Under the pieces are notes generated by a model. The model was not told where the DNA came from, ran no database searches, and saw nothing but the letters and a program-made list of their open reading frames with translations. From Haloferax marinisediminis (lineage in GTDB: Archaea; Halobacteriota; Halobacteria; Halobacteriales; Haloferacaceae), in assembly GCF_009674585.1 (NCBI RefSeq), contig NZ_WKJP01000006.1, positions 62,001 to 126,000 of the forward strand: a stretch of 64,000 nt of DNA, written 5' to 3'. Below, piece by piece: positions 8,171 through 46,997 of this stretch. Numbering within the stretch: position 1 is the first letter of the stretch; each line of letters starts with the position of its first letter. Both the position numbers and the translations under genes were made by a program.

Positions 8171-9955
8171 ATGGCGACAGAAGATCAGTCACTTGTAGAC
8201 ACTCATTTTAATTTAGAAGATTCTCCAGACGTTTTGACTCAGATCGGCGGAACGGTCAACAACGACCTATCAAGCCATCTTTTGAGCATTGAAGCAACCC
8301 GTCTAGCTATCGCACAGAGCCAACAGGAACTCCAATCGACAAAAGAAATCGCGGACAAAATCCAGCTCCTCGAACATCAGTTGGATGCAGCACACCGTGC
8401 ATTATTCCAGATGAATGGGCAGGCTCTCTTCGCAGACGAAGTTGGGTTGGGAAAGACCATCGAGGTTGGGATGGTTCTCAAAGAGATGGTGTTCCGAGAG
8501 GCACATGAAACATTCCTCATTCTAACCCCCGCACAACTCGCGACGCAGTGGCAAAAGGAGATGCGAGAAAAGTTTGGCTTAGAGTTCGCGTGTAACTATG
8601 ACGATGGATTCGAGGGTTTCGATGCGTACGACAAGGTAATCGCAAGTATCGATACTGCAAAACGGGACTCGTACGCTGAGGAGATCCACAGACGCAAGTG
8701 GGATGCACTAATTATCGACGAAGTACACTACCTTCGAAATCAAGGAACCAACCGATACGACTTCGTCGAAGACATCGAGTATCAGTATGCATTCTTCGCA
8801 ACGGCAACGCCCGTTCAGAACAACGTCAAAGACCTGTACAACATTGTCAATCTAATCCGACCTGGCTTGTTCGGGACCGAGTCTGAGTTCGAACGGCGAT
8901 ATGTTCCTGAGAAGAATCCGGATGGCGTCCAGAACTCCGCTCAACTGAACAGAGAGCTTCGGTCTGTGATGATCCGGCACAAGCGGGGCGACACAGCAAT
9001 CGACTTTACAGACCGTCAAGTCCGGACGAAAACTTTCAAACCCAACAAGCAAGAGCGGGCCCTCTACGAGGCGGTCACCAACTACGTCAAGAACTATTAC
9101 TCGAAACAAGGAGGCCAACACCTCGTCATGCTGATGTTGCAAAAAGAGGTGGTGAGTTCGCCATGGGCTGTGCTCAAGACAGTCGAAAAGTGGCTCGATG
9201 GAGAGGGGAAAGCCGTCGTAGGAAAAGAGAGAGAGGAGTTACTTTCTGTTGCAAAACTAGCCCGTGAAATCAGTCGGACAACTAAGCAACAAAAGCTCTT
9301 GGAGATTATCCGGAGCGTAAATGACCGGATGGAGACAGGGCGAGCGATCGTATTTACACAATTTCGGGCGACCCAAGACGCGATAATTTCGGCGTTGAAT
9401 GATGAAGATGGGGAAGAAGACATTCCAATTCACGTTGTGAATGGGTCGCTCTCAAGTGACCAAAAGGACGCCCAGATCCGGCATTTCAGAGACCGTGGTG
9501 GGGTGCTCGTGACGACAGACTCGATTAGCGAAGGTCGAAACATCCAATTCTGTAACGTCATCGTGAATTACGACCTCCCATGGAATCCGATGAGTGTCGA
9601 ACAACGGATAGGCCGGATTGACCGGATTGGGCAGGATCGCGACGTGTACGTGTACAATCTCGCGTTAGAGGGAACAGTCGAAGATTACGTGTTGGACAAG
9701 CTCTACGGGAAAATCGACGTTTTCCACCAAACTGTCGGTGGCCTCAAGGAGATCCTCTCCGAGCGCGAGCAGTCCAGTGGACAGTTCGAGCAAGAAGTTC
9801 TCCAACAGATGATAAATGCAGGATCGAAACGAGAACTTGAGAACAATTTCGAAGATATGGCAGTCGATCTGAAAAGCGACATGCGCTCGGCAAAGCAGGC
9901 ACAGCAATTTAACGAACAGGTGTTCGAAGGCTTTGAGACTGGAGGTGGCAAATGA
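8171..9955 (+). CDS. SNF2-family DNA helicase/translocase (restriction module)
   Basis: A 594-residue superfamily 2 ATPase. Motif I is ADEVGLGKTIEVG near residue 90, motif II is DEVH near 182, motif III is ATATPVQN near 215, and the C-terminal RecA domain shows VFTQFRATQD, SEGRNIQ and the arginine-finger motif EQRIGRIDRIGQ near 475-490. The SNF2 class is shown by the DEVGLGKT form and the IGQ ending. SNF2-type motors are restriction components in DISARM and in bacterial Dpd clusters (DpdE is, from memory, such a protein). It is first in an operon whose next two genes overlap it by 4 bp and 1 bp. It should use ATP to move on DNA and position the nuclease two genes downstream. Confidence 0.9.
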   Translation: MATEDQSLVDTHFNLEDSPDVLTQIGGTVNNDLSSHLLSIEATRLAIAQSQQELQSTKEIADKIQLLEHQLDAAHRALFQMNGQALFADEVGLGKTIEVGMVLKEMVFREAHETFLILTPAQLATQWQKEMREKFGLEFACNYDDGFEGFDAYDKVIASIDTAKRDSYAEEIHRRKWDALIIDEVHYLRNQGTNRYDFVEDIEYQYAFFATATPVQNNVKDLYNIVNLIRPGLFGTESEFERRYVPEKNPDGVQNSAQLNRELRSVMIRHKRGDTAIDFTDRQVRTKTFKPNKQERALYEAVTNYVKNYYSKQGGQHLVMLMLQKEVVSSPWAVLKTVEKWLDGEGKAVVGKEREELLSVAKLAREISRTTKQQKLLEIIRSVNDRMETGRAIVFTQFRATQDAIISALNDEDGEEDIPIHVVNGSLSSDQKDAQIRHFRDRGGVLVTTDSISEGRNIQFCNVIVNYDLPWNPMSVEQRIGRIDRIGQDRDVYVYNLALEGTVEDYVLDKLYGKIDVFHQTVGGLKEILSEREQSSGQFEQEVLQQMINAGSKRELENNFEDMAVDLKSDMRSAKQAQQFNEQVFEGFETGGGK

Positions 9956-11979
9956 AGTCAGAGGTCGACACGTCGATTTTAAACAGTGTCAATATCAAAC
10001 GATTCACGAAATCGGTTCTCGAAGAACACGGAGCCTCTCTCGACCGGTCAAACAGCGCAAAGTGGCAGGTCGATTTCCCAGCAGGGCTGTCCCAAGAACT
10101 TGACCGACAGCAGGGGACGTTGGTGTTTGACCCTGCAGACAAGACCCTTGGAGAGGGGGATTTACTCGTCCAGCCCGGGACACGCGTGTTTTCTGCACTC
10201 CTTGACTTAGTTCAGAAGCCGGCAAGCCTAGGTCGACTCCGACTCACAGAAGACAATCTCCAGATTAACCCACCGGACGTCTTTGAACCATCTAACTTGG
10301 GTGTCGATATCACAGAGTTCCAAAAGAACGACTCTGACTTCGCACTCACATTCCACTTCCGAGTCCAATTTGAGACGCCTGCATCCTTCCACAGCGAAGA
10401 GATGTTCTCCGTAACAATTGATCCACAGACACAGGCTCGCCTGCCAGACCTCACTGCGAGGCTCACATCACACCTACCACAATTACTCCAGCAAAACAAC
10501 GAAGGAGAGCGCAGAAGCGTCTCAGAAGCTGCGGTCCAAGAATCATTTAGCAAGGCTCAGCAAGCAGTTATTAATCGATCCCGGCCAATCATCTCTGAGA
10601 TTCAAACCGAAGCAGATGACAGTGCAACGGAGCGGATTGACGAAATTCGGTCGTGGTACGAACAGCGTCAATCGGAACTCGACGAGCAAATTACGTCCCA
10701 AGTCGAAGAGATTCGAAAATGGAACAAAAAGTACCGAAAGGCACGCAAAGACAGCACACGCCGGAAATACATTAACAACAAACGCGAGGCAGAAAGGAAT
10801 CTGGAACAACTGAAGAAGACGGTCGAAAAAAAGAAGCGGGAACTCGACGAGGAGGAGGCAACTGAAATCGACGAGGTGATAGACCGGAATGAGGTCAAGG
10901 TTGACGTCTCCCTCGTTGGTGTGACTGAGATTACGTACGTCCGTGGAACACTCACGCTGGATATTCAATCCAGTCAGGTACAAACCCAAGCTGAAGTCAC
11001 ATACCATCCTGCAACAGACGAGTATCATGGGCTCGACTGTGAAGTCTGCTCGAGAGACCTCACTGAGGGAGTCCTCCCACGATTGTGTTCGAACGGGCAC
11101 CTGGTCGGTGACCCGTGTTCGAATAGCTGCCGAAACTGCGACTTAGCCTACTGTGATGACTGTGACACAACCGCTACACTCGATAACTGTACGGTCTGCT
11201 TGGAAGACGTCTGTCAGAGTTGTGTTGAAGTCTGTCTGACGTGTGAATCGGCCGTGTGCAGTGACCACACAGATATTTGTGATTCCTGTGGACAGGCTAC
11301 GTGCCATCTGTGTGGTGAAGAATGCACGACCTGTGGCTCGTTCCATTGCGACACCCATCTCGAACTGTGCTCAGAGTGTGACGACTATCACTGTGATACT
11401 CACACAGATTCGTGTGCTCAATGCGGGTCAGTCCGGTGTGAAGCACATCTCGAAACTTGCGACACGTGTGGCGACCTCCTCTGTGAAGATCACACTGCAT
11501 CTTGCGCGACTTGTGACGAGACAGTCTGTGATGACCACGTCGAGTACTGTGAGGTCTGTCTCGCACACTCAGTGGCTGAGCCACGAGGGTTCTGCGACCA
11601 TCACACAGAGCACTGTTCTGTAGGTGGAGAAGTCCTGTGTGCGACACACAGAGATTCGACAACGCTTGGCTCAGGTCACGTCTGTGAAAACCATCGGGCA
11701 GCCTGCAGTACCTGTACAATAGAATATCGCGAAACGAACCTGACGAATGGACAGTGCTCAGCTTGTAATTCACTCGGTGAGGTGGACGAAGACCACATCC
11801 CAACGGTGGTCTCGAAAGAATACCGGTCTGTCAAAGCCGGGGCAAACGACGCATACATGGTAATTCTTGGTAAGCAACTTCTCGGCCGGAATAAACTAAT
11901 CGTGTACGATATCAAAACTGGTGAGGAAGCCCACCGACAGAGTGCAGGACTGCTGAAGCAACTCTTGGGAGGAATCTAA
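9952..11979 (+). CDS. coiled-coil protein with a tandem zinc-repeat array
   Basis: 675 residues; the ATG overlaps the helicase stop (ATGA). The N-terminal 200 residues are a mixed domain I do not recognise. Residues about 200-315 form a long Glu/Lys/Arg-rich coiled coil. From residue 413 to 532 there are eight contiguous 15-residue units of the form C-x2-C-x4-C-x2-[H/C]-x3, for example CDTCGDLLCEDHTAS and CSECDDYHCDTHTDS, preceded and followed by looser Cys/His clusters. This resembles a string of B-box-like zinc knuckles. The C-terminal 55 residues are a small beta domain. Placement between helicase and nuclease genes suggests a scaffold or substrate-recognition subunit. No family name can be given. 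Confidence 0.85.
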   Translation: MKSEVDTSILNSVNIKRFTKSVLEEHGASLDRSNSAKWQVDFPAGLSQELDRQQGTLVFDPADKTLGEGDLLVQPGTRVFSALLDLVQKPASLGRLRLTEDNLQINPPDVFEPSNLGVDITEFQKNDSDFALTFHFRVQFETPASFHSEEMFSVTIDPQTQARLPDLTARLTSHLPQLLQQNNEGERRSVSEAAVQESFSKAQQAVINRSRPIISEIQTEADDSATERIDEIRSWYEQRQSELDEQITSQVEEIRKWNKKYRKARKDSTRRKYINNKREAERNLEQLKKTVEKKKRELDEEEATEIDEVIDRNEVKVDVSLVGVTEITYVRGTLTLDIQSSQVQTQAEVTYHPATDEYHGLDCEVCSRDLTEGVLPRLCSNGHLVGDPCSNSCRNCDLAYCDDCDTTATLDNCTVCLEDVCQSCVEVCLTCESAVCSDHTDICDSCGQATCHLCGEECTTCGSFHCDTHLELCSECDDYHCDTHTDSCAQCGSVRCEAHLETCDTCGDLLCEDHTASCATCDETVCDDHVEYCEVCLAHSVAEPRGFCDHHTEHCSVGGEVLCATHRDSTTLGSGHVCENHRAACSTCTIEYRETNLTNGQCSACNSLGEVDEDHIPTVVSKEYRSVKAGANDAYMVILGKQLLGRNKLIVYDIKTGEEAHRQSAGLLKQLLGGI

Positions 11980-12629
11980 TGAGCGATCAAGACACTCTCG
12001 AGAAGACGGTAGCCGACACCAATTCACTTGCAGAATTCCTTGAAGCGACAGACGCCCCAACTAAAGACCAGGCAAGCGCGGTTATCAAGCACGTCTGGGG
12101 GAGAGATGTGCCACAGAAGCGGGCAGAGGCAATACTCAACAAAGAACGAGAGCGTCTTGCACAATTCGAGAACGTTTCTTTCACACAGAACTCGCGTGCT
12201 CCACGTTATATGGATCTGACCGACCTGGAGCTTGTGTCCGGTCATGAATTCGAACACATTCTGGCCGAGGTCCTCAGCCGTATTGAGGGAAGCGCAACCG
12301 TCACAAAGGCATCAGGCGATCAGGGTGTCGACGTTGTTTGGTTCCGCGACACGGAGACCATCGGGATCCAAGCAAAGGCATACAATAAGGACAATCCAGT
12401 CGGGAATAGTGCTGTCCAAGAAATCTTCACGGGATCAAAAGTCCTTGACCTGGAGTATTCAATTGACAAGTCCGCAGTGGTGACCACTTCGAGATACACG
12501 GAGAGTGCAATCGAGGCAGCCGAGAAATCAGGAGTCCGTTTGTATGGCCGGTCGCAACTGTCGCAATGGCTGTCTGAAGCGAAGTTAGATGCAGAAGCGA
12601 TGGGTGACCTCTTAGACAGGATCCGCTGA
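11979..12629 (+). CDS. Mrr-like restriction endonuclease
   Basis: 216 residues; its ATG shares a base with the previous stop (TAATG). The C-terminal half is an Mrr_cat PD-(D/E)XK domain: a helix with FEHILAEVLSRI, then the catalytic pair GDQGVDVVW and IGIQAKAYN (D...QxK), and a downstream strand SAVVTTSRYT with AAEKSGVRLYG. The N-terminal 80 residues are helical and may bind the partner proteins. Mrr-type nucleases cut modified or foreign DNA. With the helicase and zinc-array protein it forms a three-subunit set that I infer to be the restriction arm of the island. Confidence 0.88.
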   Translation: MSDQDTLEKTVADTNSLAEFLEATDAPTKDQASAVIKHVWGRDVPQKRAEAILNKERERLAQFENVSFTQNSRAPRYMDLTDLELVSGHEFEHILAEVLSRIEGSATVTKASGDQGVDVVWFRDTETIGIQAKAYNKDNPVGNSAVQEIFTGSKVLDLEYSIDKSAVVTTSRYTESAIEAAEKSGVRLYGRSQLSQWLSEAKLDAEAMGDLLDRIR

Positions 12630-13576: not shown

Positions 13577-14041
13577 ATGGCTCGAATCACATTGGGAGAA
13601 TCTCGACCCAGTGAAACTGTGCTATCGGACGCTGGTGAACGAACACTCCACGTCGGACGAGACCGCCCTATTCGAATCAGTTCGGGCCACAGGCTTCTCC
13701 ACCATGAGGGGAAGTGTTCTCGACCACACGGGCACAACTACGAGATATCGGTCACAGTCACGGGAACCCTAACAGAAGAAGGATGGGTTGTCGACAAGGG
13801 AGAGGTCACGAGTATCATCGACGAGTGGGACCACCGCTTCCTTCTGGAGGAGGGAGATCCACTCATTGAGGCATTTGCTCAGTCAGGAGATGATGACGCC
13901 GTCGTCGTGCTCGATTATCCTCCGACAGCAGAGGTAATGGCTGTTGTACTCGAAAGACGGTTGCTTGAGTCGCTACCGGACAACATTTCGGACGTCTCCG
14001 TAGAAGTTGCCGAGACGAACGAACTCTGTGCTGTCCTCTGA
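13577..14041 (+). CDS. queD: 6-carboxytetrahydropterin synthase
   Basis: 154 residues with the PTPS/QueD signature: first zinc histidine in SSGHRLLHHEG, catalytic Cys in GKCSRPHGHNY, which also holds the other two zinc histidines, DKGEV, WDHRFLL, PPTAEVMA and a final VEVAETNEL. It converts dihydroneopterin triphosphate to 6-carboxytetrahydropterin, the second step to preQ0. First gene of a four-gene preQ0 operon (queD, queE, folE, queC) with gaps or overlaps of only a few bases. Its N-terminal 30 residues are longer than usual. In archaea preQ0 normally serves archaeosine in tRNA; beside DpdA-type genes a DNA role is likely. Confidence 0.93.
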   Translation: MARITLGESRPSETVLSDAGERTLHVGRDRPIRISSGHRLLHHEGKCSRPHGHNYEISVTVTGTLTEEGWVVDKGEVTSIIDEWDHRFLLEEGDPLIEAFAQSGDDDAVVVLDYPPTAEVMAVVLERRLLESLPDNISDVSVEVAETNELCAVL

Positions 14042-14043
14042 CC

Positions 14044-14829
14044 GTGTCGGTTAATTCAGACGCTAATTCACTTGATTCTCAACCGCAGCACGACGACGGT
14101 GCTCTCCCAATCAACGAAATCTTCCACTCACTCCAGGGAGAAGGCAAGCTCGCAGGTATCCCGAGCACGTTTGTCCGTACATCCGGATGTAACCTCAGGT
14201 GTTGGTTCTGCGATTCGTATCACACCTCGTGGGAGCCTACTCACGGGTGGTTGAATCTTGACGAGGTTGTGTCGAAAGTAGAGAACTTCGCCTCAAATCA
14301 CGTCGTCGTCACCGGTGGGGAGCCGATGATACACGAGAACGTTACCGTGCTCCTCTCAGAACTGCGTAATCGAGGGTACCACACTACTGTTGAGACAAAC
14401 GGCACTGTTTATCTTGATGCTCCCATCAATCTCGTGTCTATCAGCCCGAAGCTTTCCTCATCAACACCAACGAAGGGGCGTCCTCCTGCTGGTGGCGGCG
14501 CTGACGTCGGTGTCTGGGAATACCAGCACGAAGAGACAAGACTAGACTATGATGTTTTAGGTTCGCTGGTAGAATCGTACGACTTCCAACTGAAATTCGT
14601 CGTGACAAACGAAGCAGACGTCAAGGAAGCTCAGACACTCGTCGGGGAACTCCGTGGAGTGAGTAGCGTTCCGGTCAGAAATGAGGACGTCCTATTGATG
14701 CCTGAGGGAATGACCCGCGAGCGGTTGGCCGAGACGCGTGGTTTGACTGCTAAACTGGCACTAGAGTACGGATACCGCTACACCCCACGACTCCACGTAG
14801 ACCTGTGGGACGACGCACCGGGAACTTAA
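14044..14829 (+). CDS. queE: 7-carboxy-7-deazaguanine synthase
   Basis: 261 residues from GTG 14044, two bases after queD ends. N-terminal EIFHSLQGEGKLAG is the usual QueE opening, followed by the radical-SAM cysteines in TSGCNLRCWFCDS (CxxxCxxC). VVTGGEPM is the SAM-binding GGE motif and TVETNGT the next conserved strand. QueE uses a 4Fe-4S cluster, SAM and Mg2+ to contract carboxytetrahydropterin to 7-carboxy-7-deazaguanine. Middle insertion STPTKGRPPAGGGADVG is loop-like. Followed 2 bases later by folE. Confidence 0.93.
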   Translation: MSVNSDANSLDSQPQHDDGALPINEIFHSLQGEGKLAGIPSTFVRTSGCNLRCWFCDSYHTSWEPTHGWLNLDEVVSKVENFASNHVVVTGGEPMIHENVTVLLSELRNRGYHTTVETNGTVYLDAPINLVSISPKLSSSTPTKGRPPAGGGADVGVWEYQHEETRLDYDVLGSLVESYDFQLKFVVTNEADVKEAQTLVGELRGVSSVPVRNEDVLLMPEGMTRERLAETRGLTAKLALEYGYRYTPRLHVDLWDDAPGT

Positions 14830-14831
14830 TC

Positions 14832-15442
14832 ATGAACAGAAAAACCAACGGTGAGATCGACCAGCCGAATAGCACCGAAGTCAAGATCGATTGGGAGAAG
14901 GCACAAAAGGGGTGAGGCTTCTCCTCGAAGCAATCGGTGCCAACCCAGAGGGAGTGGGCCTCGAAGACACGTGGAAGCGACGCGTCCCTCAGACCTTCGA
15001 GACGCTGACCGAGGGGTATCACGAGGAGGAGAAACCAACAATGCGGACGTTCCCAACCAAAGAGTCGTCAGCTGTGGTCAAGACGAGCATCCCCCTCTAC
15101 AGTCTCTGTGAGCATCACCTTCTTCCCTACCACGGTGTTGCCCATGTAGCCTACATTCCTGACGAGCGAGTGGTCGGCCTTTCGAAACTCTCACGATACG
15201 TTCGCTGGCAGTCACGGCGACTCACGGTTCAGGAGTCATTGACCCAGGACATTGCCGTGGGACTCAATGAGGAGGTCGGTGCCGAGGGCGTCATCGTAGA
15301 GATAACGGCGACGCACCTCTGTGAGGCGATGCGCGGTGTCGAACGGGAGACTGAAACGACGACTCGAGCCATCGTCGGAAATGTCACCAATGGTGTTGTG
15401 CGGCAGTTCGAACGAACAATAGACCGGAGTACACGACAATGA
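14832..15442 (+). CDS. folE: GTP cyclohydrolase I, read through a -1 frameshift at AAAGGGG
   Basis: The natural start is ATG 14832, two bases after queE, but that frame stops at TGA 14913-14915. The downstream frame continues GVRLLLEAIGANPEGVGLED exactly as GCH-I enzymes do. Its only start would be a TTG at 14891. The join is reached by a -1 shift on A-AAG-GGG (14906-14912), which has the X-XXY-YYZ form, immediately before the stop. Catalytic and zinc residues are intact: SLCEHHLLPYHGVAHVAY, GLSKLSRYVRW, and ATHLCEAMRGVE. The enzyme makes dihydroneopterin triphosphate from GTP, feeding QueD. It may be programmed frameshifting, a single-base mutation, or a sequencing indel. Confidence 0.85.
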
Positions 15443-16152
15443 ATGAAAGCGAGAAGACGAACACTAACGAAAGAGCAGTCATACTGGTATCTGGAGGGAT
15501 GGACAGTGCAACAGCGGTGTACGAAGCGATGGAGCGTGGATACGACCCACTATTCCTCCACACGTCCTACGGTCAGCGCACCGAAAACAAAGAGTTCGAA
15601 TCAGCCCAGCGACTCGCGGAGGTAGTCGGACCGGATGAGTTCCTCCGTGTCGAGACAGAACACCTCAAACACATCGGTGCCTCCTCACTCACCGATGAGA
15701 GTATCGAAGTAGCCGATGCCGACATGGAGAGCAAAGACATCCCCAGTTCATACATCCCCTTCAGGAACGCCAACTTATTATCGATGGCAACCTCCTTCGC
15801 TGAGTCACAGGATGCTTCGGCTATCTTCATCGGTGCTCACTCTGAGGACTTTTCGGGGTACCCTGATTGTCGACCATCGTTTTTCGAAGCCTTCCAGCAG
15901 GTCATCGACGCTGGCACGAAACCCGAGACTGACATTACACTAGAAGCGCCGTTCGTCGAATGGTCGAAGACACAAATTGCCGAGAGAGGTATCGAGCTGG
16001 GTGTTCCGTACAATCACACCTGGTCGTGCTACCGGGAAGAGGCTCCCGCCTGTGGCACGTGTGATTCTTGTGCGTTCCGCCTCCAAGCATTCCAACGGAT
16101 TGGCGTTCGTGACCCAATCGAATACGAGGAACGACCAACATACAGACACTAA
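15439..16152 (+). CDS. queC: 7-cyano-7-deazaguanine (preQ0) synthase
   Basis: 237 residues; its ATG overlaps the folE stop (ATGA). It has the PP-loop SGGMDSATAVYEA near residue 20, HTSYGQRTENKE, YIPFRNANLLSMA, GAHSEDFSGYPDCRP and the C-terminal zinc cysteines in TWSCYREEAPACGTCDSC. QueC uses ATP and ammonia to convert carboxydeazaguanine to preQ0. It completes the preQ0 set, so the replicon can supply its own 7-deazaguanine independently of the host genome. Confidence 0.95.
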   Translation: MNESEKTNTNERAVILVSGGMDSATAVYEAMERGYDPLFLHTSYGQRTENKEFESAQRLAEVVGPDEFLRVETEHLKHIGASSLTDESIEVADADMESKDIPSSYIPFRNANLLSMATSFAESQDASAIFIGAHSEDFSGYPDCRPSFFEAFQQVIDAGTKPETDITLEAPFVEWSKTQIAERGIELGVPYNHTWSCYREEAPACGTCDSCAFRLQAFQRIGVRDPIEYEERPTYRH

Positions 16153-16309: not shown

Positions 16310-17467
16310 TTAGAAGGCCTCCTCAACAACCTCCGTAGAGATGACATCGTAATCAGCATCCACCGCGTCGTCAAGGAGTCGACTGCAGAGCGCTAAGATT
16401 TGGCGAACATTCCCTTGAGATCGTTGGAGAATCACATTCAAACTCTCTTCAGTAAATGGTCGAAGGTCAGTCTCCTCTTCCGCAGATAGACGTTCTAAGG
16501 CGAGGTAATCATGAATAAGATTGTATAGATGGTCGCTAGTTAGCGGCTTCAATGTCACCTCTTGACCGATACGTTCGCTGAATGCGTGATATTCGCTCAT
16601 GACGTCCTGCCACACTTCTGGTGCACAACCAAAGAGTAGGCAAAGTCCAGAGCTATTCTGGTCCATGAGATGTCGGACGCTGTTGAGCGTCGCCTGCTCG
16701 TACTTCGGAGAGAGACGTGCGATACTCTCGAACTCGTCTACGAAGACAAACACAGCGGTATACCCGAGGTCAAGGAGCATATTCTTCAATGCAGTAAAAG
16801 CCCTGACACCCATGGTATCATCGTCGAGTGCACTGTGAATCTCCATCTCTTTGCGTTGCTCGTACCGAATCCCTTCGGCCGTAAGCCACTGCCACGCATA
16901 GAGGTTGGTATCTTCGTATATCATGTGGACAATCGCCCGAGCAAAGTCAGCGAATTTCGTGATGTCGCTTAATTCCCTGATTGCCTCTGGAATGATTTCT
17001 GGGAGTAAGACGTCTCCTTCGTCGATGAGTGACCGCATCTCTGCGGCACCTTCTGGTGACTCATCAGTGCATTCTCGAGTGATTGAAGCCAGGTACTCGT
17101 ACGACAAGTTCTGTAAATGACTGAACCCGAGATCGTAGACGAACTCGTGATAGATATCGAGGAAGCCCTCTCCCGGTTGGGCAACATAGCCTACAATCAC
17201 GTCGTCGTGGTCACGAAGCAGTGAGCGTGTGTATTTCAGCGTATGCGACTTCCCATTCCCATACTTTCCTGTGACGACGAGGTGCTTCGACTTGCCAGTC
17301 GACAGTACCGTCGAAACCGTCGAGCTAATCTTCTCTGAAACATGGCTCTGTCCACAGAATATCTCAGGGTTTTCGGCTGGGACTGGACTATACGGGAAGG
17401 GGTTTCCGCTGAGGCCGTATTTTGAGTAATCGCGCTGCTGGTCTGTGATGTTGAAGTTACTGGACAT
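16310..17467 (-). CDS. AAA+ ATPase of the modification island
   Basis: 385 residues. Starts with a YGLSGNPFPYSPV segment typical of ORC/TniB/BREX-like ATPases. Walker A is GKYGNGKSHT (67-76), Walker B VFVFVDEFESI (239-249), followed by a sensor region GLCLLFGCAPEVW and a C-terminal helical lid. Not an origin-binding Orc1 (no winged helix is apparent after the lid). It is the last gene of an operon with the HTH protein (1-bp overlap) and the small TGT-like protein (4-bp overlap). Related ATPases occur in Dpd and BREX clusters; this one may drive target remodelling or restriction. Exact family not assigned. Confidence 0.85.
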   Translation of the reverse strand: MSSNFNITDQQRDYSKYGLSGNPFPYSPVPAENPEIFCGQSHVSEKISSTVSTVLSTGKSKHLVVTGKYGNGKSHTLKYTRSLLRDHDDVIVGYVAQPGEGFLDIYHEFVYDLGFSHLQNLSYEYLASITRECTDESPEGAAEMRSLIDEGDVLLPEIIPEAIRELSDITKFADFARAIVHMIYEDTNLYAWQWLTAEGIRYEQRKEMEIHSALDDDTMGVRAFTALKNMLLDLGYTAVFVFVDEFESIARLSPKYEQATLNSVRHLMDQNSSGLCLLFGCAPEVWQDVMSEYHAFSERIGQEVTLKPLTSDHLYNLIHDYLALERLSAEEETDLRPFTEESLNVILQRSQGNVRQILALCSRLLDDAVDADYDVISTEVVEEAF

Positions 17468-18363
17468 TAGTGTGTCTCTTGTTCAAACGTGATGTCGCGG
17501 TCGTGGACCGCGAGGTAGTAGTATTTCTTACCGTACAATTCGACGCCTGCCATGACTCGCTGAGTCGACTGCGAAGTCGTGATTAGCGAGCCTTCGTCAG
17601 CGAGTTCAATTTGTTTGATTCCGAGCGTTGCATCCTTCGCGGCCGTGTCCATCGGTGCGCCAGAGAGCTCGATTTTACCAACGTTCTGCTGGCAAAGCTC
17701 AAGCACCGCTTCGTCGAAATCTCGTCTCCGACACCCAATTCGTTCGCAGATATTCTCTCGGAGTCGTGGAATCGAGAGGTACCGTTGACGCAAGTTGACC
17801 CCCGCTGTTTGTTCGAGGTTGTCATAGGTGTCTAATAGGATGAAGTGAAAGTTGCTCGGGATTTCAGTCTCGTTCGAGAGGTAGTAGTCCCCAGAGAAGG
17901 CATTCCGCTGCACACTTCCAAGCCGTTCAGCCCAATCACCAACGATCTCGATACCAGTCTGGTTGAATGAATATGGCGTATACTCCTGTGTCTTCTCAAG
18001 GTGTTCTAAGAGTGTGTCGAGGTCAGCATATCCAATTTCTTCAAGCGCTTGGAGGAATGCACCGTAGTGAGGACTTCGGGCAGCGAGAATCGAGCTGACT
18101 TTCCTCCAGTTTTCGGCACGGATAGAGTCCAAGAACGACTTTCCGATGCCCGTAGTCGTGTAGACGAACTCGTCACCATCTTCACTCTCTGATAACAGTG
18201 AAACCCGTGTCGCTTCGAGGATCGTCTCTCGCGCTCTCCGATGATTTACATCGAGTGCTTCAGCCAGTTCTGCTGTTGACCTGTATTCGTCTTCACATGC
18301 GTACGTGAGCTCCACGAGTCGACTCAGCGTAACAGGACGGATAGTCGGTCGCTCATCGCTCAT
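17467..18363 (-). CDS. winged-helix-like protein coupled to TGT and AAA genes
   Basis: 298 residues. The N-terminal 70 residues look like a DNA-binding winged helix: RPVTLSRLVELTYACEDEYR, then STAELAEALDVNHRRARETI and a TGIGKSFLDS wing end. The middle part resembles further HTH repeats (LQALEEIGYADLDTLLEHLE), and residues about 190-235 give RQRYLSIPRLRENICERIG. The C-terminal segment is beta-rich and ends in FEQETH. Start and stop overlap both neighbours, so it is part of a fixed three-gene set. It could be the DNA-sensing subunit that recruits the transglycosylase or ATPase. Family not recognised. Confidence 0.8.
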   Translation of the reverse strand: MSDERPTIRPVTLSRLVELTYACEDEYRSTAELAEALDVNHRRARETILEATRVSLLSESEDGDEFVYTTTGIGKSFLDSIRAENWRKVSSILAARSPHYGAFLQALEEIGYADLDTLLEHLEKTQEYTPYSFNQTGIEIVGDWAERLGSVQRNAFSGDYYLSNETEIPSNFHFILLDTYDNLEQTAGVNLRQRYLSIPRLRENICERIGCRRRDFDEAVLELCQQNVGKIELSGAPMDTAAKDATLGIKQIELADEGSLITTSQSTQRVMAGVELYGKKYYYLAVHDRDITFEQETH

Positions 18364-19394
18364 GTGAGCCTCCGAACCTGCTGTTTTGCGGTCTGGTATG
18401 CGCGACTCGTCACCTCATTGCCCTGGAACCGAAGGTCTAGGTAATCCTCAATGTTCCGCCCGGATTCAGCAACGTATTGGAATCGGCGTAATTCCGTTGC
18501 CAACGCCCAGAGGTTGTGTTGAACGAGAGCAGAGCGATCTTCACGAATGTCGTCCAGTGTTCGAGTACCACAGACTGGGCATGGACACGGGAGTCGCTCC
18601 AACTGTTCTATGTCCTGTAATTCTTCTCCACCAAAACCTGGTATCAGGTAATTCCGATTGCCTGCTCCTCGAATGAAAGCGGATGAATCGAAACTATCGA
18701 CGCCGAGATAGAGAAGAAGTGGTTGATAGACGAGACCACCAAGCCCGTACACGTGGAGGTGTTTGTCGGTGGCGGTTCGCGCTGATAATATCAGTTTTGT
18801 TACTTTTTTGTAATCTGACCGTATTGGAACCATGCTCCCGAGGGCATAGCCATCGAAATCACCGAACTTCTCTAGATGAGCGATGCAATTGCGAACGGTC
18901 TCCGGATCGTACCCGTGAACACTCGCGAATAACAACGCCTCGCCAGAGTGCTGGTCACTTGCTTCGAGCGCATATTCGATACTTTGGTTGACACGGCGCT
19001 GGTTTTCTGCCGCACGTTTTTCTCGTGAAAGTGGGACATCAACCGTACCGTAAATGTCCGCATCGAGTTGACGTTGTGCCTCAAGTGTTTTTTTGGGGGT
19101 AGTGTCGACTTCACCTGAACTGAAGTCGAATCCACCGCTATCCGCAAACACGATTGTATCTTCAGGAACGCCCATCTCCTCGCGGAGTGTAACACCGTTC
19201 AGTAACCGATCCCACATCGGTGTGCGATTACGAATTGCCCGTGTATTGATCATCGCCACCGGTAAATCCGGTATGGACCCCACATACGATGGTGTGTTGT
19301 CACTTGACCGTTTCCCGATATTCCGGACCGGGAAAAAGACAGGTGTGTTTAGTTTCCCGTGAGGGAGGTCAATTGTCCGACGTCTGTATAGCAT
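18360..19394 (-). CDS. compact TGT-like transglycosylase (DpdA-like paralogue)
   Basis: 344 residues with a tRNA-guanine transglycosylase barrel. Residue D85 in FADSGGFDF corresponds to the general acid/base Asp of TGT; GYALGSMVP (183-191) and HVYGLGG (214-220) match TGT substrate-binding loops; VDSFDSSAF (232-240) holds the nucleophile Asp equivalent; C270, C272, C275 and H293 form the TGT zinc site. There is no PUA domain, which archaeal tRNA enzymes carry, so DNA or a special substrate is likely. It is the first gene of an operon with the winged-helix and AAA proteins (ATGA overlap). Gene symbol withheld because a second, larger DpdA follows. Confidence 0.85.
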   Translation of the reverse strand: MLYRRRTIDLPHGKLNTPVFFPVRNIGKRSSDNTPSYVGSIPDLPVAMINTRAIRNRTPMWDRLLNGVTLREEMGVPEDTIVFADSGGFDFSSGEVDTTPKKTLEAQRQLDADIYGTVDVPLSREKRAAENQRRVNQSIEYALEASDQHSGEALLFASVHGYDPETVRNCIAHLEKFGDFDGYALGSMVPIRSDYKKVTKLILSARTATDKHLHVYGLGGLVYQPLLLYLGVDSFDSSAFIRGAGNRNYLIPGFGGEELQDIEQLERLPCPCPVCGTRTLDDIREDRSALVQHNLWALATELRRFQYVAESGRNIEDYLDLRFQGNEVTSRAYQTAKQQVRRLT

Positions 19395-19478: not shown

Positions 19479-22373
19479 TTAATACTGTTTGAGCTCAACT
19501 TGTGTCGGGTCTTCATCGACTTCCCGACATAGTGTTTCGATAAGTCCGGGGTTTAGTAGTTCAATATTCTCGACACGTCGTGCGAAGTTTTTGAGGTAAA
19601 CTCCCTTCAAGCCGACGACGATTGTACCATGGTTTTTGGCGTCATCAGTCCGGGCGGGGACAGACACGATATTGTCGAATTGTTCGTCGACAATCTCCCG
19701 ATTGAACACGACGCCAATCTGGTCTGCACGGATTCGCTGTATCATCGAGTCGATATCGATGCTGTTGTAGTAGTCCTTCCCCAGCGTGAAGAACACGACA
19801 TCGAAGTTGCCTTCGTCGAAGACTTTTTCGAGATCTGACCGGATATGCAGTTTCGAGGAACGGTCACGGATTTCGGCAACCTTCATCGAACTGAACGTCA
19901 CTTCGTACGGTGGTAGCGGTTCGTTCTCTGGAACTAATCCGAAGCCAGCGCTGATGAAGTAGCGTGATACTTGGTGGCCGCCATCTCTCAGTTTTCTGAC
20001 TGCTTCGCGGACGTAGTTCTGTTGACGGCCAGTATACAGGTCAGATGCTGCGATACCGGGAACATTCTCCCTATCTAACAGTTCCTCTCGCGAGAATTTG
20101 AGCGTCTCCTCTGCGTCGAATACGGGCGCCCCATCCGGGAACTCCTTACTGCCCGAACACTGGTCGACAACGAGGATGTTGAGTCCGTCAGCAGGATTCG
20201 CCTCGGGAGCGTGCGGGATGAAATCGTCACCAACGACGTAATCCTCGCCACACGCTTCGAGGACGTCTCTGCGGAGCACAGCAGAATCGGAAAACGTGTG
20301 TAGCTCGCAGTTGGAGGATTCGACTCCCTCGGCGAGTGCAGGGTCTACGTCACCGTCTGGTGTGACGAGGAAGAGGTGTTGGTACCGCTTCGACTGCTCT
20401 CCCAGATTGTCTGCCGTTCGAGTTGTCGAAAACGAGACACTGGAGTTGGTCTCCTCCCACCACTCAGTGACGCCACTAGCGTCGAAGACACCGATTTCGG
20501 CTACAGGGAGATCGTGGACCTGTTGCCAGAATTCGGGTTCTTCGCTTCGGAGGTACTCCTCGATAGTGTCGTAATTGCTGAGGCCTGCCGAACCTCGAAC
20601 CGCGATGAGAATTTTCGGAATCGCGTCGTCGAACTCGTCGTAGAAGCGACGTGTGTTGTGGAATCCACGACGCCGGTTTCGGTCATTTCCTCGGAAGATA
20701 CAGACCTCGATTCCGTGCTCCTCACAGATCGGGCATTCGCATTTTTCCCACGGGCGGTTAGCGAGCGTCCGCTGATAGTCCTCTAACAGATCGTCATCAC
20801 CAATCCAGGTGGCATAGTCCTCGACGACAGCCCAAATCTCGTCGTATGGCGTCGAGTCTGCTCCGTCGATGATCGCGGGCGTTCGCGGGAAAGTCGCAAA
20901 CTCATCTTCAGCAGTGTTCAGCAGGTCTTCGTACTCAGAGAACGGGAGTGGGTCTTCTGAGCTGTCCTTCCGCAGGAGTTTGACGATCTTCCCTCGTAGG
21001 GCATCGCTGAAACTGGCCTGCAGTTCGCGAGCGTATTCGAAGTCATCTCGAAGGGTTGCTTCGATGTCCTGGAGAAGCGACTGGTCGTACCGACTGTCGT
21101 GGCGGTGTTCACGGAGGTACTCCCGGGTTTTCGGGAGGACAGTAGCAGCCAGCTCATGCCATTCGTGGACCGCGTCCGTAAGAGACCCCTCAGCGTCGTA
21201 CGCTCGCAACGCAACGAGCGTTTCTCTCCCACGTAGCGACTTCTGAACGGACTCGTCTAACGAATCACGATTCGAGGGGTACCGAACACGAATTGCATCG
21301 TAGCGTTCGTCGTGGTCGAGCCGATAGTTGTCGCCGCCAGTCCACGCGGAACGGAGCATACTCGCACTGTCGAAACTCGTCATTCCCGAGCGGCCAACAG
21401 TATCGAATCCCTCCGTCTTCGCAAACCCGAAGACGTGTGTATCGATACGTCGGGTGTGTTCGCGTTCGAACTCCTTGACGGATTTCCCGACGTTTTTGAC
21501 GATCTTTCGGACGTCGTGGATTGGACTGCCCGCGACACCACCGATTCCCACGTAGTCGTATCCGATTCCGAGGACGTACTCGAGGGCTTCGACGTAGGAT
21601 TCTGGGTCCCAACCCTGGATAGCGACCATCAAGCGGAACGAATAGTCGCCCGCGTGGTACTGCTCGTACATCTCCTGGGCGTTGTCGAGCGTGAGTTCGT
21701 ACCGGAATGCCGCATCGTCAGCACGATAAACTGCACGCGAATCCTCTGCTAACTCAGTGAGGACAGCATCCACGTCGCCCTCGAAATCAGACCGCGTAAA
21801 TGGTGTAACAGCAGCATCTGTGCGAATGCTTGGTTCGTACTCATCGACGTAGCTCGGCCACTCATCGGGCCACTCATCGATCATCAAATCGACGACATCG
21901 GTTATGCTGTCTGGGATGTCAGACTTCGAAAACCCGCCACCGAAAGCGCGTTTGTCGAGATAGAGACGCCCCTTGTCTTTTCCAGACCCTAAGACAAGAT
22001 GGTCGATAGTGACACCAACAGAGACCTTCAGGTCTTCATAGAAATCCAGCATCTCTGCATTGTCGTAAGGGGGAAACGGGAGCGATTTGTACCCCCACGC
22101 GCCGCAGTCACTGATTGTCGGGAGCCATTCCGGGATAGAGAGAACAGGGTCATCGTAGACACCGTGCTTGCGCAATCGTTGAGATTTCCGGATCGAGCTT
22201 TCGACTTGTTCGCGCGAAATCAGTACCCCATCGATGGGAGTGGTATCGTGTTCAAAAATATCCCAGATGTAGCTGAGCTCACGCTCCTGACGGTCGACAG
22301 TAGAGAGTTCGTCGTGTTCGAAATCATAGCCAGCATCGACAGCATCGTCCCATTCTGGAACGTAGAATCGCAC
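19479..22373 (-). CDS. dpdA: DpdA-type DNA transglycosylase fused to a YaaA/DUF6884-like domain
   Basis: 964 residues. The start MRFYVPEWDDAVDAGYDF and the block ISDCGAWGY (87-95, D89 as acid/base), VTIDHLVLGS, GIGGVAGSPIHDV, THVFGFAKTEGF and GMTSFDSASML (330-340, D335 as nucleophile candidate) fit the DpdA branch of the TGT superfamily, which exchanges guanine in DNA for preQ0. A TGT zinc site is seen as C545, C547, C550 and H571. From residue 731 to about 890 lies a second domain: LNILVVDQCSGSKEF, DLYTGRQQNYV, YFISAGFGLVPENEPLPPYE, resembling YaaA/DUF6884 domains and, in the CSxSK motif, the ArcS catalytic region. It could further modify the inserted base. Separated by 84 bp from the next operon. 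Confidence 0.85.
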   Translation of the reverse strand: MRFYVPEWDDAVDAGYDFEHDELSTVDRQERELSYIWDIFEHDTTPIDGVLISREQVESSIRKSQRLRKHGVYDDPVLSIPEWLPTISDCGAWGYKSLPFPPYDNAEMLDFYEDLKVSVGVTIDHLVLGSGKDKGRLYLDKRAFGGGFSKSDIPDSITDVVDLMIDEWPDEWPSYVDEYEPSIRTDAAVTPFTRSDFEGDVDAVLTELAEDSRAVYRADDAAFRYELTLDNAQEMYEQYHAGDYSFRLMVAIQGWDPESYVEALEYVLGIGYDYVGIGGVAGSPIHDVRKIVKNVGKSVKEFEREHTRRIDTHVFGFAKTEGFDTVGRSGMTSFDSASMLRSAWTGGDNYRLDHDERYDAIRVRYPSNRDSLDESVQKSLRGRETLVALRAYDAEGSLTDAVHEWHELAATVLPKTREYLREHRHDSRYDQSLLQDIEATLRDDFEYARELQASFSDALRGKIVKLLRKDSSEDPLPFSEYEDLLNTAEDEFATFPRTPAIIDGADSTPYDEIWAVVEDYATWIGDDDLLEDYQRTLANRPWEKCECPICEEHGIEVCIFRGNDRNRRRGFHNTRRFYDEFDDAIPKILIAVRGSAGLSNYDTIEEYLRSEEPEFWQQVHDLPVAEIGVFDASGVTEWWEETNSSVSFSTTRTADNLGEQSKRYQHLFLVTPDGDVDPALAEGVESSNCELHTFSDSAVLRRDVLEACGEDYVVGDDFIPHAPEANPADGLNILVVDQCSGSKEFPDGAPVFDAEETLKFSREELLDRENVPGIAASDLYTGRQQNYVREAVRKLRDGGHQVSRYFISAGFGLVPENEPLPPYEVTFSSMKVAEIRDRSSKLHIRSDLEKVFDEGNFDVVFFTLGKDYYNSIDIDSMIQRIRADQIGVVFNREIVDEQFDNIVSVPARTDDAKNHGTIVVGLKGVYLKNFARRVENIELLNPGLIETLCREVDEDPTQVELKQY

Positions 22374-22747: not shown

Positions 22748-25414
22748 CTAATCTAAAAACCGTTGGAAATTTGCTGTAATGACGGTCTCTTGTCTCTTCG
22801 CCTCTGTCTCGACAATTTCCCTGTAATTGATCTCTTCGTCCTCATTATCGTCTTCATCTTCTCCACCATACTCATTATCCAGAAGTTGTATAGATGTAGC
22901 AACTTGCTCCAGAATCTCTATCTTCCGCTCTGTCACGCCCTCGTAGGTCCATCGCCGGTTGTAGTCATCAGCCACGTTCGCCAATTCCTCCATTCTCGAC
23001 TCAACCGATTCCACGAACTCCTCATAGCTAGATACAGAGTCAAATCCAAGTTCGGTGACTGTGCTTCCGTACGTGTCCTCACCGACCTCCTCAAGAGTCT
23101 CTGCTAGCCGCATGTATTCATCTAGCTCAGAGAATTCCGGCGTGTCGATATACTGGTTGTAGAGACTCTCGTTCACCGACAGTTCGTCGAAACCGTCCGT
23201 TTTATCGTATGCGTACGCTTTCTTTGCGAAGGGCAAGTTCCCGATCGATTGGTTTTCGGTGAAACGTAGGAGAGTCAGATTTCCCAGGCTGTGTATGTAC
23301 TTCTCTGCGAGTTCCCCAAGGTGGTCATCGGCCTCTTGATCGATGAGTCCTTCAACGACTCCCTGAAGGGTGTAGTCACCATCATCTCGTTGGGGAGCGT
23401 TCTCTGTACAAAAGAACCACCGGTACCAATCGTACTTGTCCCCATGGTTCTCAAGGAGCGGAGACTGAGGAAAGATATGCTCGATATGGACCACTTCATC
23501 ATCTTCATTGAGGGTCTTCAACACCATCTCATCGTCACCAACCATAGCTTCAGAGACTAACTTCCTGAGTAGTTGCTTGCCCATGTCAGGCCGCCAGTCA
23601 CTCTCGCATAGTAGTTTGACGAGAGGTTCACCGAACAACTGACTGTTCTCGCTACGTGCTTCTCTGACTAACTGTTGCTTTACCTCCTCTGAGAAGCCGT
23701 TATCGGTGAACTCACCCACTGCTGCCGCGTACGAGTTGTCCTTAACATGAACATCTCGACTCACGTAAAGCCGGACAGTCATGGACTCCACAGTCCGGAG
23801 TAATTCGAGTAGGTCACCCTGGCGATCCATGTGGTGCTCACATACATCGTGATACGCTGCGAGAACCAATGGTTGCCAAACACTGGTGTTCGCCTTAGAC
23901 AAGCGTATCAGGATGCGGTTACACTCCGACTCAGTGTCCTGGTCTCCCTCCTCGCCGAGGTCGATTCCGTAGTTCTCGGGATCCACGAGGTGGTGATAGT
24001 AGACAGCATACTCCTGCAGGTCTTCAATTAGTTCCTTCGCATCGTCAATGTTACTCAGATGTGTCGATAGTCTTCGAGAGTCGTCCTCAGTCTCTTCGAG
24101 GGTGAACGCCTCTAATAGGTGGTCGCCGATATCTCCCCGGGCATTGATACCGTCCTCCGTCACGACGAAATATGTCTTGAGGAAGTCGAGTATTCTTCTA
24201 TGATCGGTGTCGAACTCGTCCACCACAGATTCCCAACGACGAGTGTACTCGTCATACTCGCGCTCCGATGCATCGCGTCGGAGTCTACCGATGATTCGTG
24301 TCCTGATGATGTCAGTCTGCTTGAGTTCGACTCCACGATTGTTGAGGACTTCAAAAATCTTCATCAGAAGTTGGGGCTGGTTATCATCCACCTCGAAGTA
24401 GCCAACATAGAAGCATTGCAGAATGAATTCTTTCAGGTTTACCAGAAAGAGGTACTGCTTCTCAGGGTTTGGACGGTTCTCGAGTTCCCCGTCGATACGC
24501 TTCGAGAAAAATCTGTATGCCTTTCTAATTTGATTATTGGAATTTTTGAATTTGACCTTACCATTTATCAGAATCTCTTTTTGCAGGTCCGTGAAATCGG
24601 ATGCGTCGTCCTTACCAGACGGCATACCTGCATGTGACTTCATCAGGTTCGGCCTAGACCCATCTGTCTCCTCGTACAGACTGTCATCAGCTATTGCATC
24701 GAGGTAAGCGTCGTGCTCAAGATCGAATTCATCCAGGAACGTCTTGATACGAATAGCATTGTTCTTGGTATTGTTGCTCACCCCTTCGTTCTGGATAATA
24801 TACCGAATGAGGGCCTCCTCACCCCTCATCAGGGCAGAGAAGAACTCGCGGTTGTGTTGATCAAGTTCTAGAGACGGACCTAATGTCGGGTCTCCGTTGG
24901 TGTAGATGAGCGATTGTGTTTTGCCTACGTGACCGGAGTACTGACTGATGAACCTACTCCCGCAATCGGGAAGGTTCTCGACGAGATGGTCGGCGATTAT
25001 TTTGAAGAGAACGGAGAGGGTCGTCACTCGCTGTTGACCATCGATGACGTCGAAGACATGACCATCACGGTTGATATCCTTACGATCGGAGAAGAACATC
25101 GAACCAAAAAACACGTCTGAACCCCGTCGTGATACACTCCGTCCGTTTGACTCGAGGAGAGGGATAATCTCGGCCCAGAATTCATCCCATTGCTCCGTGT
25201 CCCATTCATATCCACGTTGATAGTCTGGGATGTGGAACTCTTTGTGGAAAAATTCGTTGAGTGGAACCCTGTCGATTTCAATATGATCTCGAACCCGGGT
25301 GCGGATCAAGTCGGTATAGACTATTTCGTTTTGACCGGCCTCCCCCTCGAAACGAAGAAGTTTGTTCCCTAGAACATCCTCTATACTCATAGTGTCATGT
25401 GTGCTAGATACCAC
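22748..25414 (-). CDS. DUF262-DUF1524 protein (GmrSD-like type IV restriction enzyme)
   Basis: 888 residues. The N-terminal DUF262 domain shows FHIPDYQRGYEW (60-71) and DVIDGQQRVTT (122-132), the NTPase motif. The C-terminal DUF1524 part shows VHIEHIFPQSP near 640 and SLGNLTLL near 708, the HNH-like nuclease motif. GmrSD and related enzymes hydrolyse NTP and cut DNA that carries base modifications. It lies beside dpdA, on the same strand. Two readings are possible: a nuclease that destroys phage DNA with other modifications, or an ATPase partner of DpdA, in the way ATP-hydrolysing DpdB is needed in bacteria. The frame is full length and all motifs are intact. Start ATG 25414; a second ATG at 25390 is possible. 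Confidence 0.88.
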   Translation of the reverse strand: MVSSTHDTMSIEDVLGNKLLRFEGEAGQNEIVYTDLIRTRVRDHIEIDRVPLNEFFHKEFHIPDYQRGYEWDTEQWDEFWAEIIPLLESNGRSVSRRGSDVFFGSMFFSDRKDINRDGHVFDVIDGQQRVTTLSVLFKIIADHLVENLPDCGSRFISQYSGHVGKTQSLIYTNGDPTLGPSLELDQHNREFFSALMRGEEALIRYIIQNEGVSNNTKNNAIRIKTFLDEFDLEHDAYLDAIADDSLYEETDGSRPNLMKSHAGMPSGKDDASDFTDLQKEILINGKVKFKNSNNQIRKAYRFFSKRIDGELENRPNPEKQYLFLVNLKEFILQCFYVGYFEVDDNQPQLLMKIFEVLNNRGVELKQTDIIRTRIIGRLRRDASEREYDEYTRRWESVVDEFDTDHRRILDFLKTYFVVTEDGINARGDIGDHLLEAFTLEETEDDSRRLSTHLSNIDDAKELIEDLQEYAVYYHHLVDPENYGIDLGEEGDQDTESECNRILIRLSKANTSVWQPLVLAAYHDVCEHHMDRQGDLLELLRTVESMTVRLYVSRDVHVKDNSYAAAVGEFTDNGFSEEVKQQLVREARSENSQLFGEPLVKLLCESDWRPDMGKQLLRKLVSEAMVGDDEMVLKTLNEDDEVVHIEHIFPQSPLLENHGDKYDWYRWFFCTENAPQRDDGDYTLQGVVEGLIDQEADDHLGELAEKYIHSLGNLTLLRFTENQSIGNLPFAKKAYAYDKTDGFDELSVNESLYNQYIDTPEFSELDEYMRLAETLEEVGEDTYGSTVTELGFDSVSSYEEFVESVESRMEELANVADDYNRRWTYEGVTERKIEILEQVATSIQLLDNEYGGEDEDDNEDEEINYREIVETEAKRQETVITANFQRFLD

Positions 25415-44012: not shown

Positions 44013-44117
44013 TTCTTGTAGGCTAGTTTTGAGACAACTGAGTTGGGTCGGCGTCAGCGTTCTCGAGGCACTGTTAATCGGTGTAGATTTACAATGCCGG
44101 CATGGCATCACGGTCAC

Positions 44118-45050
44118 ATGATAGAAAAGAGTCGAGCGCAAGGATGTCTTCTAGGATTAGCTTGTGGAGACGCATTAGGCCGTCCTGTCGAGTTCAAGAG
44201 CCCTTCCGAGATTGATTCCGACCATGGCAACGTAACTGAGATGATTGGCAATGGGACGCACGGACAACCGGCTGGCACCATCACTGACGATACCGAGATG
44301 GCACTGTGTATCGCTCGAAGTCTCGTTGAGCAGAATGCGTTCGACCCAGAAGACGTTGCAAACCGATTTGTCGAGTGGCTGGATTCCGGCCCCTTCGATA
44401 TTGGATTGATGACTCGTGATGCACTCTTCCGGATCAAACAGGGGACTCCATGGAACGAAGCAGGTGTCGACGTGTGGCACTCACGTCCAGAGGGCTCCAA
44501 CGCAGGCAATGGAAGCGTGATGCGATGTGCACCACACGCGATTGCGTTCCGGAACGAACGTAATGAGTTAGACCGTGTCAGTCGACATTCGTCTTCAATA
44601 ACCCATGCTGACCCACGCTGTCAGTGGGGCTGTATCCTACTTAATCGGACGCTCGCAAACCTAATCTGTGACGTGAGCGACCCACTAGGAACTGCACTTG
44701 AAGACTCAAGTGAAGCCCCCGATGAACTCTGGACTGCGATCGAAAACGTACATCAGGTACTGAGCGGTGAGAGGAACCAGTCGAGTTTCGAGTCTACGCT
44801 TTCGACGTCGGGATATGTCGTCGGCTCACTCCAAGCAGCGGTATACTACGGATTATCGGCTAACTCTGCCGAAGATGCCGTGGTTCAAGCTGTGAACAGA
44901 GGACATGATACAGATACAGTCGGAGCGATTGCTGGGGCCGTTGCAGGGGCACGGTATGGGGTTGAAGAAATTCCAACTCGATGGATAGAAGAAATCGATG
45001 AGTCAGTTGAGCTATCGAGGTTGGCTAGCCAGCTACTGACAGTTCAGTAA
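44118..45050 (+). CDS. ADP-ribosylglycohydrolase (DraG-like)
   Basis: 310 residues with start ATG 44118 (MIEKSRAQGCLLGLACGDAL). Metal-binding signatures are TITDDTEMALCIARSL near residue 60, GSNAGNGSVMRCAPHAIAF near 125, and GHDTDTVGAIAGAVAGARYG near 265. The enzyme removes ADP-ribose from proteins or nucleic acids using two Mg2+ or Mn2+. In accessory DNA it often reverses an ADP-ribosyl toxin, but no ART gene is obvious here. The frame upstream to 44043 is open but unlike the family. Confidence 0.88.
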   Translation: MIEKSRAQGCLLGLACGDALGRPVEFKSPSEIDSDHGNVTEMIGNGTHGQPAGTITDDTEMALCIARSLVEQNAFDPEDVANRFVEWLDSGPFDIGLMTRDALFRIKQGTPWNEAGVDVWHSRPEGSNAGNGSVMRCAPHAIAFRNERNELDRVSRHSSSITHADPRCQWGCILLNRTLANLICDVSDPLGTALEDSSEAPDELWTAIENVHQVLSGERNQSSFESTLSTSGYVVGSLQAAVYYGLSANSAEDAVVQAVNRGHDTDTVGAIAGAVAGARYGVEEIPTRWIEEIDESVELSRLASQLLTVQ

Positions 45051-46250: not shown

Positions 46251-46997
46251 GTGGTGATTCGGTCTTCTCGACTGCGTCTGACGAGTGTCATACCCCGCCA
46301 TTTCCACTAATAGACTGACAAGAACTCGATGTGATGGTCCACGCGGTTGACCCTCCCCCCACCGTTTCCAGTAAAACTCGACGAAGAGAAGGGCTAGCCC
46401 TTGCAGAAGTTTTTTCCACCATTGAGTGGGCGACAACAAGCTTCTGTCAGTTTATCCTACGGACTAACTTGTTATCCACCAATATAAAACTTTGCTACTA
46501 TTTACTGTTTATTCTGTAGCACCCCGACCTATTCGAGGTTCTTTACTGGAAATGGTGGGGAGGGTGTGTCCCGACCAAGCTCGTGATTGAACAACCACGA
46601 CGTCTCCCGATTAACTTATAATCGAAGATTTACTGGAAACAGTGGTGTCTCCCAGATATATAAATAAGTCTTTACTGGAAATACTGGAACCCAGTGGTCT
46701 CATTTCTGGTTTAACTTTACGACTTCTTGTTCTTCGACTTTACTGGAAATGGTGGGGTCTAATCACCTTCCAGCACCCCGTTGATTTACTGGAAATAGTG
46801 GTGTGAACAATCATCCAAAATCCCAATCCTCTCGTCATAGTCCCTAATGACTGTCTCAGTGACTTTCTTGTGTATAATTGGAAACCAAGGGGGCAATACT
46901 TGCTATTGGAACCGATGGGTACCCATGGTTATACTGGAAATACCGGAAACGGTGGTCGAAACAATTATCAGACACGACTGAGTTATCTGACCAAACC

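Follow-up and report, generated by a model that had tools for sequence, protein, structure and literature searches.

A fused DpdA–DpdC protein in Haloferax marinisediminis and a probable Dpd-type DNA modification system of haloarchaea

Introduction

Bacteria, phages and some archaeal viruses are known to replace guanine in DNA. The locus considered here raises the question of whether a haloarchaeal host marks its own DNA in this way and, if so, with which base. It lies on a 128.8-kb contig (NZ_WKJP01000006.1) of the 3.49-Mb genome of Haloferax marinisediminis, in a stretch of 64,000 nucleotides referred to below as the window, and it is centred on a protein in which a DNA-guanine transglycosylase of the DpdA type is joined to a second domain (Table 1). 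A preliminary description had compared this second domain with that of ArcS, the archaeosine synthase, and had proposed that it converts inserted preQ0 (7-cyano-7-deazaguanine) into a base that could be new. From the sequence comparisons set out here, the product is most likely the known base dADG (amido-deazaguanine), and the fusion is best explained, with a probability of roughly 0.7, as the modifying part of a Dpd-type restriction-modification system in haloarchaea, which would place preQ0 in DNA and convert it to dADG.

The DpdA half of the fusion

The gene starts with GTG and runs without interruption through 964 codons, and the nearest named relatives of its product are from Haloferax. 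Those of H. gibbonsii and H. marisrubri have the same length as the fusion, while a copy on a plasmid of H. alexandrinus is 82% identical and bears the label 'queuine tRNA-ribosyltransferase' from the Prokaryotic Genome Annotation Pipeline. Since the relatives keep this length, and since the ratio of nonsynonymous to synonymous substitution (dN/dS) in the DpdA part is ~0.05 between the window and H. gibbonsii, a sign of strong purifying selection, the fusion is a maintained protein. For the C-terminal domain the same pair gives a dN of 0.15 with dS saturated.

The N-terminal half had been described beforehand as a DpdA-type tRNA-guanine transglycosylase (TGT) with an intact pair of catalytic Asp residues and an intact zinc site, and this is borne out. 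The NCBIfam DpdA equivalog NF041059 matches with 283.5 bits (E 2.4e-84), above its curated cut-off of 200, and among solved structures the DNA-guanine transglycosylase 7ui4 is the best match (phmmer, E 1.2e-41). The acid/base D89, the nucleophile D335 and the zinc ligands C545, C547, C550 and H572 are each at least 97% conserved across 43 aligned DpdAs, and they align with the residues of the bacterial DpdA from Enterobacter. The DpdA half probably acts on DNA, in which it would insert preQ0.

The C-terminal domain

The second domain starts at L731 (LNILVVDQCSGSKEF). Residues 731–964 are matched by the PADLOC DpdC models (E 6e-7), and DUF6884, with a cut-off of 30, gives 30.6 bits on the domain alone and 27.9 on the whole protein. 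When a profile of 25 haloarchaeal DpdC-type domains was used as the query, it matched five bacterial DpdCs at 97.5% probability (E 7e-12, 207 columns) and the N-terminal domain of the cyanobacterial and Paenibacillus proteins called 'DpdA' at 99.8% (E 9e-30); a search of PDB sequences with the profile gave nothing relevant. The fused YaaA/DUF6884-type domain of the preliminary description accordingly stands, and the CSxSK motif singled out there is the CxxxK motif of DUF6884 (PMC11701544).

None of the 40 domains compared, drawn from haloarchaea, methanogens, cyanobacteria, Bacillota and proteobacteria, lacks this motif (C-x3-K). The other motif of the family, SAxxG, is found in the window domain as SAGFG, so that the domain shares both CxxxK and SAxxG with the DUF6884/YaaA (DUF328) superfamily (PMC11701544). 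In this regard, the Pfam curators regard CxxxK and LSAxxG as the motifs that likely form the active site of DUF6884, and they assign the family a YaaA-like fold (PMC11701544). The annotated start of the DpdC of Enterobacter cloacae (L071:6970-7918) is apparently too far downstream, and the in-frame stretch upstream of it holds the conserved TTCTNGK.

A route from preQ0 to dADG

DpdC has been described as the converter of dPreQ0 to dADG (PMC12839542, PMC11888242). Because the fused domain belongs to this family, and because C-x3-K is retained in 40 of 40 domains, dADG is the most likely product. For the same reason the suggestion of a new base is a weak one, DpdC being the maker of a known base, although the accompanying suggestion that the domain acts on inserted preQ0 is probably correct.

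The proposed sequence of events is as follows. FolE, QueD, QueE and QueC, encoded beside the fusion, would make preQ0, which the DpdA half would exchange for a guanine of DNA, D335 being the nucleophile and D89 the acid/base. Cys739 of the C-x3-K motif would then probably attack the nitrile to give a thioimidate, to be resolved by water. A second transglycosylase (TGT2), a winged-helix protein and a BrxC/D-like ATPase may find or open the DNA target, which is the role of DpdB in bacteria. Since one chain would carry out the two steps, the nitrile intermediate may be handed over directly. The four preQ0 genes diverge from the dpd operon, and the QueC of the window is an extra one, there being also a chromosomal copy. 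Near the dpd locus of some relatives is a Vut_1 (YhhQ-type) gene, verified for one of them (L063), which fits uptake of preQ0.

Several observations weigh against this explanation. The match to DpdC is remote, with ~16% identity across 207 columns. Foldseek gave no significant fold match for the domain in the PDB, the AlphaFold model searched being a poor one from a four-row alignment (predicted local distance difference test 53, predicted template modelling score 0.61). In a survey of 391 Halobacteria genomes, 56 of which have strong DpdA matches, the DndB/DpdB family (PF14072) is absent from 55 of those 56 and from the H. marinisediminis genome itself. Moreover, the restriction partner differs between loci: large DruE/DpdJ-like helicases with a PLD-domain protein, a DpdH-like ATPase or GmrSD/DUF262 nucleases are found. 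Of possible counterparts of the restriction genes dpdD–K, DpdJ/DruE-, DpdH- or PLD-like ones lie beside some relatives, while the window has its SNF2/Mrr and GmrSD genes only. As the partner is not constant, restriction in this genome is an unproven candidate function.

Alternative explanations

The alternative that survives best, albeit as an unlikely one, is that the C-terminal domain performs no chemistry and only binds DNA in the manner of E. coli YaaA, helping DpdA to get to its target base or to flip it, such that the mark would be unmodified dPreQ0. The DUF6884 model does match E. coli YaaA itself, and DpdA alone is enough for dPreQ0 in some systems (PMC6884629). YaaA, however, is a stand-alone stress protein that lacks the Cys motif, having ISPAKT at the position where all 40 DpdA-associated domains keep C-x3-K, and the haloarchaeal profile matches it only weakly (1.7%, against 97.5% for DpdC).

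Less likely still is an ArcS-like conversion of preQ0 to an amidine, a lysine adduct or another base, giving dG+ or a new base. Like the fusion, ArcS is a TGT-derived protein with an added domain that contains a CSxxK string (CSAKKPY, at the end of a strand), and residues 874–964 of the fusion, which lie beyond DUF6884 and are conserved in haloarchaea, could carry extra chemistry. Profile comparison with 19 haloarchaeal ArcS proteins nevertheless gave a probability of 0.5%, on which homology was rejected; the likeness to ArcS drawn in the preliminary description is therefore one of a short shared string, in contrast to the clear relation to DpdC. Nor did family scans recognise any further radical SAM (S-adenosylmethionine) or amidotransferase gene in the operon.

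That the island TGTs are tRNA-modifying paralogs of archaeosine synthesis is very improbable: the TgtA model TIGR00432 gives TGT2 135 bits, short of its cut-off of 350, but TgtA (633 bits) and ArcS (844 bits) are intact on the main contig C1, so that the host can make archaeosine without the island copies; these, moreover, have no C-terminal tRNA-binding domains, are confined to ~14% of genomes and are surrounded by defence genes.

The second transglycosylase and its partners

TGT2 is itself catalytically intact. Its residues D85, D236, C270, C272, C275 and H293 are invariant in 28 of 28 aligned rows, and its catalytic and zinc sites coincide with those of the host's own TgtA, the C-terminal region of which is missing from TGT2. 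The gene occurs in 56 of the 391 genomes, 55 of these being in common with DpdA and both exceptions lying near contig ends (Fisher p 6e-65, without correction for shared ancestry). In haloarchaeal DpdA genomes TGT2 is normally accompanied by the winged-helix protein, which is found in 58 of the genomes surveyed, and by the BrxC/D-like ATPase. In the window all three genes follow downstream of the fusion on the same strand, with overlaps of 4 bp or shorter. The AlphaFold model of the winged-helix protein is poor (48.9; four-row alignment). Two proteins encoded beside the TGT2 of Paenibacillus were compared with these partners, and homology was rejected both between its 246-aa protein and the winged-helix protein and between its P-loop protein and the ATPase.

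A tentative proposal, which we place somewhat short of even odds, is that haloarchaea have a two-transglycosylase class of Dpd system, in which the DpdA–DpdC chain and TGT2 would have, instead of DpdB, the winged-helix protein and the ATPase as partners. Each TGT may then place a deazaguanine mark of its own, different from the other's, or the pair may form a heteromeric enzyme, for which there is no described precedent acting on DNA. On cyanobacterial plasmids the companion of the domain pair is in some cases a second TGT (L073, L104) and in others a DGQHR/DndB protein (L105, L106); these few cases, in which one or the other is carried, suggest that TGT2 replaces DpdB. In a BREX-related capture system with a TGT, a STAND ATPase has been proposed as the DpdB replacement (PMC12839542). 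The constant second TGT poses a clear and testable question, namely what takes the place of DpdB.

A locus of a second type (L051:1-19901) has DpdA and DpdC beside a divergent 302-aa TGT that keeps the Asp pair and the zinc Cys residues, so that this locus, which has no TGT2, still has a second TGT. The sole DndB/DGQHR-like match lies between DpdC and TGT2 in L046 (G274:C1:843914-844129). Two scans of viral contigs brought up nothing related to the fused domain or TGT2.

Fused, split and reversed forms

Among the Halobacteria, 31 intact long DpdA copies are fused (open frames of 965–1182) and 25 are unfused (723–773); a short-type fusion in G131 and a broken second copy in G264 come on top of these. 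In the 36 loci that were read, the DpdC-type domain is either fused to DpdA or directly adjoins it. Indeed, each split locus read has a separate neighbouring DpdC-type gene, the product of which mostly starts M-x-I/V-L-I/V-I/V-DQCS. In the DpdA tree a single clade (support 100/99) holds 16 fused rows, and a further fused row, L057, sits apart from it, so that more than one origin of the fusion is possible.

Fusions in the reverse order, DpdC–DpdA, are found in Paenibacillus and cyanobacteria, and in four archaeal genomes outside the Halobacteria (L111–L114, taken as methanogens) DpdA has a shorter C-terminal DUF6884 domain. Taken together, these fusions suggest that the two activities have been joined repeatedly. 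In three of the four archaeal genomes an AAA ATPase of 1118–1129 aa lies beside DpdA, followed by a DEAD helicase in L111, the sole one scanned.

Relationship to known systems

The haloarchaeal set resembles bacterial Dpd, as in Salmonella Montevideo (dpdA–C with dpdD–K), in the catalytic and zinc residues of DpdA, in the DpdC-type domain, in the nearby preQ0 genes and, beside some copies, in DpdJ- or DpdH-like and PLD-domain proteins. It differs in being archaeal, in having DpdA and DpdC in one chain without any DpdB, and in its intact second TGT, winged-helix protein and BrxC/D-like ATPase. The cyanobacterial and Paenibacillus fusions (annotated dpdA, ~690 aa) have the same two domains, and those of Picosynechococcus, Nostoc and Paenibacillus also have a second TGT nearby; the domain order, however, is reversed, and in Allocoleopsis and Scytonema the pair is found with a DGQHR/DndB-type protein. 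The BREX-related capture system shares with the window a TGT and a BrxC-like ATPase (PMC12839542), but no HerA, DUF6079 or DUF4007 was found in the window, which has a DpdC domain.

A survey that required both dpdA and dpdB found the islands in bacterial phyla only (PMC11888242); the haloarchaeal class is without dpdB. Necessarily with the proviso that an earlier mention is possible, an archaeal, DpdB-less class with two TGTs and both modification steps fused appears to be undescribed in the literature searched. Host-encoded DNA marking is probably present in about one in seven of the haloarchaeal species sampled (56 of 391). Haloferax is genetically tractable, and the base is thus directly testable.

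Table 1. Features of the dpd locus in the window
Feature	Position	Strand	Basis
DpdA–DpdC fusion, 964 aa	19479..22373	(-)	NF041059, PADLOC DpdA/DpdC, no internal stop
DpdA (DNA-guanine transglycosylase) part, residues 1–581	20631..22373	(-)	Alignment of 43 DpdAs; phmmer 7ui4
DpdC/DUF6884 domain, residues 731–964	19482..20183	(-)	Profile matches; separate gene in split relatives read
C-x3-K motif C739-S-G-S-K743, candidate catalytic Cys and Lys	20145..20159	(-)	40/40 DpdC-like domains
TGT2, second TGT, 344 aa, without C-terminal tRNA-binding domains	18360..19394	(-)	TIGR00432; alignments
Winged-helix protein, 298 aa, 4-bp overlap with TGT2	17467..18363	(-)	Alignment; N-terminal winged-helix pattern in model
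BrxC/D-like AAA+ ATPase, 385 aa	16310..17467	(-)	PF10923 E 9.6e-15
QueD (PTPS)	13577..14041	(+)	PF01242 E 5.8e-22
QueE (radical SAM)	14044..14829	(+)	PF04055 E 7.4e-16; family assigned by gene order
FolE (GTP cyclohydrolase I)	14891..15442	(+)	PF01227 E 6e-52
QueC (preQ0 synthase)	15439..16152	(+)	PF06508 E 1.5e-70
GmrSD/DUF262-type nuclease, candidate restriction partner	22748..25414	(-)	PF03235, PF07510; relatives at several dpd loci
SNF2 helicase, 675-aa cysteine-rich protein and Mrr nuclease, candidate restriction module	8171..12629	(+)	

Other genes of the neighbourhood

Further along the window are a Superfamily 1 helicase gene resembling MkoA (35869-38109; PADLOC E 8e-84), which is a possible defence gene, and a gene for an ADP-ribosylglycohydrolase (44043-45050; PF03747, E 1e-81). 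An Orc1/Cdc6-type initiator gene (46878-48245) suggests that the contig is an independent replicon. In some relatives a Csa3-type CARF protein is encoded beside the dpd operon (L058:11159-11986), and csa3 is annotated in L075 too.
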